A DNA stretch of 58,814 bases from Cystobacterineae bacterium (GTDB taxonomy: Bacteria; Myxococcota; Myxococcia; Myxococcales; Myxococcaceae): contig WRKR01000015.1 in NCBI GenBank assembly GCA_009782175.1, positions 1 to 58,814 of the forward strand, written 5' to 3'. Made by a program: the position numbers and the translations under genes. The notes below the pieces were generated by a model. It searched no databases. It was not told where the DNA came from and was given only the letters and a program-made list of their open reading frames with translations. Below, piece after piece: positions 7,635-9,248 of the stretch (the first letter of the stretch is position 1; each line of letters starts with the position of its first letter).

Positions 7635-9248
7635 ATGCGCTCAAAGAAAACGAAGTTTATTTTTGTCACGGGTGGGGTGGCTTCTTCCCTGGGCAAAGGC
7701 ATTGTCTGTGCAAGCATCGGCAGCTTGCTTGAAAACCGCGGCCTCTTTGTCACCCTGTTGAAGATGGATCCCTATATTAATGTGGACCCTGAAACCATGA
7801 GCCCTTTCCAACATGGGGAAATTTATGTCACCCATGACGGTGGGCAGGGGGATTTGGATTTGGGGCATTATGAGCGGTTTACGCGGGCCCAAATTAACCG
7901 CAGCAACAACTTCACCTCCGGAAAAATTTATGACACCGTCATCCAAAAAGAGCGCCGCGGGGAATACCACGGCCAAACGGTGCAGGTTATTCCACATATA
8001 ACCGACGAAACCAAGTTGCACATTTGGGCCGCGGCAGAAGGGTATGACGTGGTGGTCGTCGAAATTGGCGGCACGGTGGGCGACATTGAGTCCCTGCCTT
8101 TTTTGGAGGCCATCCGCCAGCTGCGCTTTGATGTGGGGGGCGGCAATTGTTGCCACGTGCACCTCACCTTGCTTCCCTTTATTGCTGCCGCAGGCGAGGT
8201 GAAAACCAAACCCTCGCAACACTCTGTGATGAAGCTGCGCGAAATTGGCATTCAGCCGGATGTGCTCATCTGCCGCGCGGACCGCCTCATTGAGGAGAGC
8301 ATTCGCGACAAGCTGGCGCTGTTTTGCAATGTGGAGAAGCGCAGCGTGTTTGTGTCTCCAGAGGTAGAGTCCGTCTATGAGTTGCCCATGGAGTTGCACC
8401 GCCAGGGTTTGGATGAGCGGCTGACGGATATACTCAATATTTGGGCGGCCAAGGCGCGCCTCAAAGAGTGGGAGGTGGTGGTCGACAAACTCAAACACCC
8501 CTCCAGAGGACAACTCAACGTGGCCGTGGTGGGGAAATATGTAGAGTTTAAAGAAAGCTACCGCTCCCTCACCGAGGCTTTGGTGCATGGCGGCATTGAC
8601 AATGGCTGCCGCGTCCAAGCCGTGTTTGTGGATGCACAGGAGGTAGAGAAAAAAGGCCTCGAGGTGCTGCAAGGCTATGAGGGCATTGTTGTCCCCGGGG
8701 GCTCAGGCGTGGGCGGCAATGAAGGAAAAATTGCCGCTGCCGGCTATGCGCGCAAAAACAAACTCCCCTATTTGGGCATTGCCCTGGGCATGCAAATGGC
8801 CGTGGTGGAGTTTGCCCGGAATGTGGCCGCCTGGGTAGGCGCCAACTCCCTCGAGTTTGACTCTAAAACACCCCACCCTGTGGTGGTGCCTTTCGCCTCG
8901 GGGCAAGAGTTGCGCCTGGGCTCCTTCGAGTGCCGCCTGCTCCCCCAAAGCCTGGCCGCCTCCCTCTATAAAACCGGAACAACCAAGGAGCGCCACCGCC
9001 ACGGCTATGAAATTAACCCCAACTGCCTGGAGAAACTCCAGGCCCTGGGCCTGCACTTTTCAGGCATTGAAACCAACAAAGGTTATGCGGAAATTTGTGA
9101 GTTGCAAAACCACCCCTTCTTTTTGGGTTGCCAGTTCCACCCTGAATTCCAAAGCAAACCCTTTGCCGCCCACCCTCTCATTTCAGGTTTTGTGCATGCC
9201 GCCATGCAATATAGGGACGAGCGCCAACAACAACAGGAGCAGGGATGA
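7635..9248 (+). CDS. pyrG: CTP synthase with a degenerate glutaminase site
   Basis: The 537-residue enzyme aminates UTP to CTP. The synthase domain is well kept ([42 protein letters not shown]). In the C-terminal glutamine amidotransferase domain the nucleophile Cys of GICLGMQ is Ala383 (GIALGMQ, codon GCC at 8781-8783), and the oxyanion loop normally PGGFGxRGxEGK reads [12 protein letters not shown]. His502 and Glu504 (FHPEF) remain. The enzyme should therefore use free ammonia or a separate ammonia source. I start at ATG 7635 ([14 protein letters not shown]), the family start. Its stop overlaps the kdsA start, the usual pyrG-kdsA order. Confidence 0.95.

Follow-up and report, generated by a model that had tools for sequence, protein, structure and literature searches.

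A genus of Myxococcaceae with a CTP synthase predicted to be unable to hydrolyse glutamine, and an apparent wider move from glutamine to ammonia

Results

The pyrG locus and its surroundings

We analysed a window of 58,814 nucleotides (contig WRKR01000015.1) from a Cystobacterineae bacterium of the family Myxococcaceae. The features discussed here are listed in Table 1. The pyrG gene was identified as encoding CTP synthase by its match to the NCBIfam model PRK05380 (733 bits against a cut-off of 308, E=1.7e-220). The preliminary description had allowed for a second, normal pyrG elsewhere. We looked for one throughout the window's genome (2.70 Mb, 65 contigs, 99.95% complete) and found no second pyrG; a weak match on another contig proved to be a different protein and was rejected.

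Several other elements of the window were noted. Just upstream of pyrG lies a 93-bp tandem repeat in four copies (92% matches, 6826-7214), which is open in frame as part of a 183-aa ORF with RPLTPCNAPQ-type repeats. Further short repeats are located at 23606-23875 and 50132-50415, and a long ORF (12947-15034) resembles squalene-hopene or terpene cyclases, as judged by its sequence alone.

Table 1. Features of the pyrG locus and of the nrfHA region (residue numbers with E. coli are those of the E. coli enzyme).
Feature	Position	Strand	Basis or remark
pyrG, CTP synthase with predicted dead glutaminase	7635..9248	+	ATG start at 7635; only copy in the genome
Synthase (amidoligase) domain	7638..8441	+	K18, K40, D72, E140 and UTP/CTP-site residues kept; dN/dS 0.03
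E. coli V60 to Ile, ammonia-tunnel gate residue	7821..7823	+	same in three species; Val in all aligned relatives
E. coli E68 to Gln, faces GTP purine in E. coli model	7845..7847	+	alignment
E. coli L109 to His, L4 loop, couples glutamine hydrolysis to CTP synthesis	7968..7970	+	alignment
Class I glutamine amidotransferase (GAT) domain, present, predicted catalytically dead	8508..9218	+	Pfam GATase match, residue losses, high-confidence fold
Oxyanion strand/lid L11, GGSGVGG (GGFGxRG in relatives)	8697..8717	+	E. coli F353 to Ser, R356 to Gly
Nucleophile Cys (E. coli C379) to Ala383, codon GCC	8781..8783	+	sequence and alignment
L13 wing segment of relatives (xxQVxVxDKGGTM) missing, reads ASGQE	8893..8907	+	alignment
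E. coli R470 to Gly, guanine-reading arginine (Drosophila R481)	9003..9005	+	alignment
Catalytic His502 and Glu504 kept	9138..9146	+	His502 at 9138-9140, Glu504 at 9144-9146
kdsA- and kdsC-like frames directly after pyrG	9245-10643		named from sequence
nrfH-like tetraheme cytochrome, possible ammonia source	50566..51036	+	four CxxCH motifs
nrfA-like ammonia-forming nitrite reductase	51114..52682	+	NCBIfam PRK11125 E=1.4e-80, under curated cut-off

Loss of the glutaminase site in PyrG

The preliminary description held that Ala383 takes the place of the nucleophile Cys and that the oxyanion loop has lost its Arg-Gly, and both observations were borne out. The Cys-His-Glu triad expected of a glutamine-hydrolysing PyrG is thus incomplete in the genus: the Cys is Ala or Gly, while His and Glu are kept. 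The further claim that the rest of the GAT domain is intact stands for His502 and Glu504, but not for E. coli R470, which is Gly or Ser, nor for the shortened L13 wing. Likewise, the synthase domain, described as looking active, is conserved, but V60, E68 and L109, whose roles lie in the binding of GTP, in coupling or in gating of ammonia, have been lost. There is good support, as a prediction from these residues, for a PyrG that has lost glutamine hydrolysis while its synthase domain stayed conserved.

The genus comprises three species. In the two others, Gly occupies the E. coli C379 site (GIGLGMQ, GIGMGMQ), and the lid Arg-to-Gly change is common to all three, indicating that the Cys loss is neither an error nor a quirk of one strain. 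Judging by the synonymous divergence of pyrG among the three species (dS about 0.45-0.93), the loss is an old one that has become fixed throughout the genus. The Ala itself, whose fixation in the clade the preliminary description proposed to check, is found in one species and Gly in two; it is the loss and the lid change that are shared. Outside the genus, Cys and GFGxRG were present in 27/27 other family members (PyrG read from search loci) and in 26 further relatives of the order or family (PyrG fetched by coordinate), and Cys was kept in all of about 79 more distant homologues. A partial departure was seen in one more relative with a small genome (2.7 Mb, same order): its PyrG keeps the Cys, but the residue at E. 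coli L109 is Gln and ERHRHRYE is changed to ERFRHRYE.

Changes in the GTP site, ammonia tunnel and wing

From an alignment of the three PyrG sequences of the genus with those of 107 relatives, E. coli among them, we took the positions unchanged in at least 98% of the relatives. Among these 158 positions, 16 were altered in the genus. They include C379 (A/G), R356 (G), R470 (G/S) and F353 (S, two of three species), together with V60 (I), E68 (Q) and L109 (H) in the synthase half, the last three in all three species.

The roles of these residues are documented in two well-studied enzymes. In Drosophila CTPS, R481, F373, R376 and L107 bind GTP, and F373 guards the glutamine entrance (PMC8325340); they correspond to E. 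coli R470, F353, R356 and L109. In E. coli CTPS, V60 is the tunnel gate, E68 faces the purine in the model, and the coupling of glutamine hydrolysis to CTP formation depends on L109 (PMC9138612). The GTP-activation site and lid are therefore not preserved: L109, R356, R470 and E68 are changed in all three species and F353 (to Ser) in two, and the L13 wing, which also contacts GTP, is shortened. Positions implicated in glutamine, GTP or the tunnel were over-represented among the altered ones (7/22 against 9/136; Fisher p=0.002, a guide, since the list was chosen post hoc from two papers and general knowledge). In a leave-one-out comparison, 0/27 sister genomes had an altered position of this kind. 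The change of E. coli K306 to Arg was considered as a lost GTP contact and rejected, because the VGKY motif places Drosophila K306/Y307 at E. coli K297/Y298, both of them retained in the genus.

Fold and selection

By sequence and fold, the protein qualifies as CTP synthase (EC 6.3.4.2), with E149, K187, Q192 and K223 kept in addition to K18, K40, D72 and E140; the residues for UTP, ATP, CTP and Mg are conserved. Its AlphaFold model (pLDDT 86) is confident in the GAT domain and not confident in the loop of residues 48-60, and superposes on E. coli CTPS 8fve with Z 47.3 and rmsd 2.0 over 508 residues at 50% identity.

Between species, dN/dS of the synthetase parts was 0.03-0.05 overall (PyrG synthase 0.03, GuaA synthetase 0.04, PurF transferase 0.04), and that of the GAT halves was 0.08-0.13 for PyrG, 0.29 for GuaA and 0.09-0.12 for PurF. 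Moderate values alone are no sign of decay, since the intact TrpG of the genus gives 0.12-0.18. The ratio of GAT to synthase divergence between the genus PyrG and the family was 1.65-1.70, against a family median of 1.52 (5-95% range 1.24-2.27). Taken as a whole, the PyrG GAT domain thus shows no strong acceleration, and the change is site-specific. On this comparative evidence, the PyrG GAT domain remains constrained although its catalytic and regulatory sites have been lost, and the GAT domains of GuaA and GlmS are shrinking or gone. With its GAT nucleophile lost and its synthetase domain under purifying selection, PyrG shows the sequence pattern of a CPS I-like ammonia-dependent amidoligase.

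Other glutamine amidotransferases of the genus

The three genomes were searched for other amidotransferases, the searches covering CarA, GuaA, PurQ, GlmS, AsnB-type proteins, NadE, PurF and TrpG, and for GOGAT, glutamate dehydrogenase and glutamine synthetase; sister-genus controls covered PyrG, CarA, GuaA, TrpG and GOGAT. In CarA, encoded in a pyrB-pyrC-carA run, Cys is replaced by Gly, His by Gln and Glu by Ser or Leu in 3/3 species, and the site is intact in four sister genomes. The GAT domain of GuaA, whose synthetase domain adjoins guaB, is shrunken and Cys-less in two species and deleted outright in the window's genome. PurQ, adjoining purL, has Gly for Cys and Ile for His. GlmS, adjoining glmU, starts at profile position 243-247 in all three species, leaving the isomerase half without the class II GAT domain. 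An AsnB-type protein begins MASIAGF, with Ala for Cys2. Its gene and its neighbours occupy positions 3453-9847 of the locus examined; next to it are genes for an acyl-CoA ligase of the exosortase type and for a single-domain protein resembling NAD synthase (PRK00876), surroundings like those in EPS/PEP-CTERM clusters. NadE keeps its synthetase domain; no CN_hydrolase domain was found in it by Pfam, and a weak alignment shows Gly for the catalytic Glu.

Two enzymes depart from this pattern. PurF keeps Cys1, with MDGA for the oxyanion HNGN (Asn to Asp) and RYPK for RYST/RYAT, and has thereby lost residues of both the oxyanion and the glutamine loop. All three triad residues (Cys, His and Glu) are present in 3/3 species in TrpG, which is encoded in a trpE-trpG-trpD operon and was the only intact class I GAT found in the three genomes. 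The genus thus retains a working glutamine amidotransferase by sequence, and the result shows that the searches do detect intact enzymes and that the glutamine amide, still used for anthranilate, has not been wholly abandoned.

GOGAT was absent from all three genomes in our search and strong in two sister genomes. Glutamate dehydrogenase (GDH) was present in all three; a type III glutamine synthetase was detected in two, the third genome being 88% complete. Each glutaminase loss is seen in two or more of the three genomes, and the affected glutaminases belong to three unrelated folds: class I (PyrG, CarA, GuaA, PurQ), class II (AsnB-type, GlmS) and the nitrilase type (NadE). The contigs carrying GAT genes of the window's genome have a GC content of 51-57%, against 54% for the window, consistent with one organism. 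Besides PyrG, at least five nitrogen-donating enzymes apparently have a disabled glutaminase, and two more have probably lost theirs.

Genome size, habitat and possible ammonia sources

The genomes of the genus are 2.1-2.7 Mb, in a family with mostly 4-13 Mb, which suggests strong reduction with host association. One species, Co191P4bin16, is a metagenome-assembled genome (MAG) from the hindgut compartment P4 of Cornitermes, a litter-feeding termite (PMC7024585). In termite guts, NH4+ amounts to 69-900 umol per g dry weight, and nitrate ammonification takes place there (PMC4675541). As the preliminary description stated, nrfHA is encoded in the same window as pyrG; both genes are present, about 41 kb from pyrG. 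The NrfA match reaches 271 bits against a PRK11125 cut-off of 595, and the protein may be a divergent form. A link between nrfHA and the ammonia used by PyrG is speculative, and the evidence on ammonia supply and habitat is circumstantial.

Discussion

Free ammonia as the nitrogen donor

We consider it likely that the genus has switched from the glutamine amide to free ammonia for most of its biosynthesis and that PyrG is one case of this switch. The stricter proposal, that nearly all amidotransfer (CTP, carbamoyl phosphate, GMP, FGAM, glucosamine-6-P, NAD and AsnB-type products) runs on free ammonia and that PyrG is a GTP-independent, ammonia-only enzyme, seems to us probable to a lesser degree; the retained Cys1 of PurF and the intact TrpG are points against a full switch.

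In the proposed mechanism, free NH3/NH4+ would feed the synthetases directly. The PyrG synthase domain would bind UTP and ATP normally and phosphorylate UTP with ATP, and cytosolic NH3 would enter through the opening normally covered by GTP and aminate 4-phospho-UTP. Since the GTP site serves to activate the glutaminase, to plug the vestibule and to seal the tunnel, its loss would remove both an obstacle and a useless switch, and the GAT domain would stay as a structural scaffold. Such a mechanism would be chemically conservative, because E. coli variants with a damaged lid, wing or L4 loop (L109A, R429A and G352P) still make CTP from NH3, and because GTP can hinder exogenous NH3 from entering (PMC9138612). 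The same logic would extend to GuaA, NadE, CarAB and PurL, as PP-loop or ATP-grasp synthetases accept NH3. GlmS may work like a glucosamine-6-phosphate deaminase running backwards; its secondary matches to NagB-II and GlmD are compatible with this and do not demonstrate it. E. coli GlmS is reported to be unable to use free ammonia, a point against an isomerase-only function in the genus. We infer that NH3 is used in the cell at high intracellular ammonia, with an ammonia-rich gut as the enabling condition; that such a gut fits the switch is plausible.

Alternative explanations

The preliminary description had named free ammonia or ammonia from another protein as the source for PyrG. Under the second option, the dead domain would be the docking site of a separate glutaminase or GAT subunit that supplies ammonia in trans. 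In its favour are the retention of that domain with a confident fold and the existence of an intact class I GAT, TrpG. However, TrpG sits in an operon with its own partner, and the three genomes yielded no further intact enzyme of its class. Class II and nitrilase-type glutaminases are lost as well, and GlmS and GuaA without the domain leave nothing to dock on. We therefore regard feeding in trans as unlikely and favour free ammonia over a partner, because a PyrG partner would leave the losses in CarA, GuaA, PurQ, GlmS, the AsnB-type protein and NadE unexplained. It is also quite improbable that the enzymes are becoming pseudogenes under relaxed decay, with nucleotides, aminosugars and NAD taken from the surroundings. 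Such decay would agree with the reduced genome size and with GAT halves evolving faster than synthetase halves (0.08-0.13 against 0.03 in PyrG, 0.29 against 0.04 in GuaA), but few of the sequences measured are as constrained as the synthetase domains, frames and operons (pyrBC-carA, guaB-guaA, purQL, glmU-glmS) are intact, only glutaminase functions are lost, and the PyrG divergence ratio is near the family norm.

Compounds of the DON, azaserine and acivicin type alkylate the GAT Cys, and resistance to such antibiotics from neighbours might have selected its removal, as the loss of this Cys in several enzymes would suggest. TrpG and PurF nevertheless keep theirs, and resistance would not need whole-domain deletions, the loss of GOGAT or the loss of the PyrG GTP site, which makes this explanation very unlikely. 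Finally, an assembly or sequencing artefact might be suspected, since Co191P4bin16 is a metagenome assembly and the other two genomes may be as well. It is contradicted by three diverged species that differ in codon and residue at the Cys site and share losses elsewhere, and we give it hardly any credence.

Comparison with known systems

The genus PyrG shares with E. coli PyrG (1S1M/8FVE) the two-domain fold, the UTP, ATP, CTP and Mg residues and the His and Glu of the triad, and differs in the missing Cys, the altered lid, GTP site and tunnel gate, the short wing and the predicted need for free ammonia. Vertebrate CPS I likewise keeps its GAT domain as a shell after loss of the Cys and uses free ammonia (PMC7657897), as is predicted here; CPS I of terrestrial vertebrates, however, serves urea formation in the mitochondrion, whereas the present case concerns bacterial PyrG and several other enzymes. 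Single-domain ammonia-dependent NAD synthetases use free ammonia for a biosynthetic amidation in the living cell (PMC3376133), again a predicted likeness, but their ammonia-dependent form is inferred to be ancestral, while the genus enzymes would be glutamine users secondarily disabled. The engineered E. coli CTPS variants G352P, L109A and R429A lose glutamine-dependent synthesis wholly or in part and keep NH3-dependent synthesis near wild type, as we predict for the genus PyrG; they are single laboratory mutants, in contrast to a natural, fixed set of changes.

In a literature search that was incomplete, covering few subscription journals, we came across neither a natural CTP synthase lacking the Cys nor a coordinated loss of GAT function in several enzymes. 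Ammonia use by single enzymes is already known from CPS I and NAD synthetase, and the real finding is the genus-wide pattern.

Biological meaning

The glutamine amide is the usual nitrogen currency because free ammonia in the cell is kept low (PMC3376133). A genus that has apparently dropped glutamine in about eight enzymes offers a natural experiment on the conditions that require glutamine channelling. It displays stages of GAT decay, with domains that are dead, shrunken or deleted, and may be a source of ready-made ammonia-dependent enzymes for study. Its PyrG bears on what the GAT domain does beyond glutamine hydrolysis and on how far the GTP plug limits exogenous ammonia.
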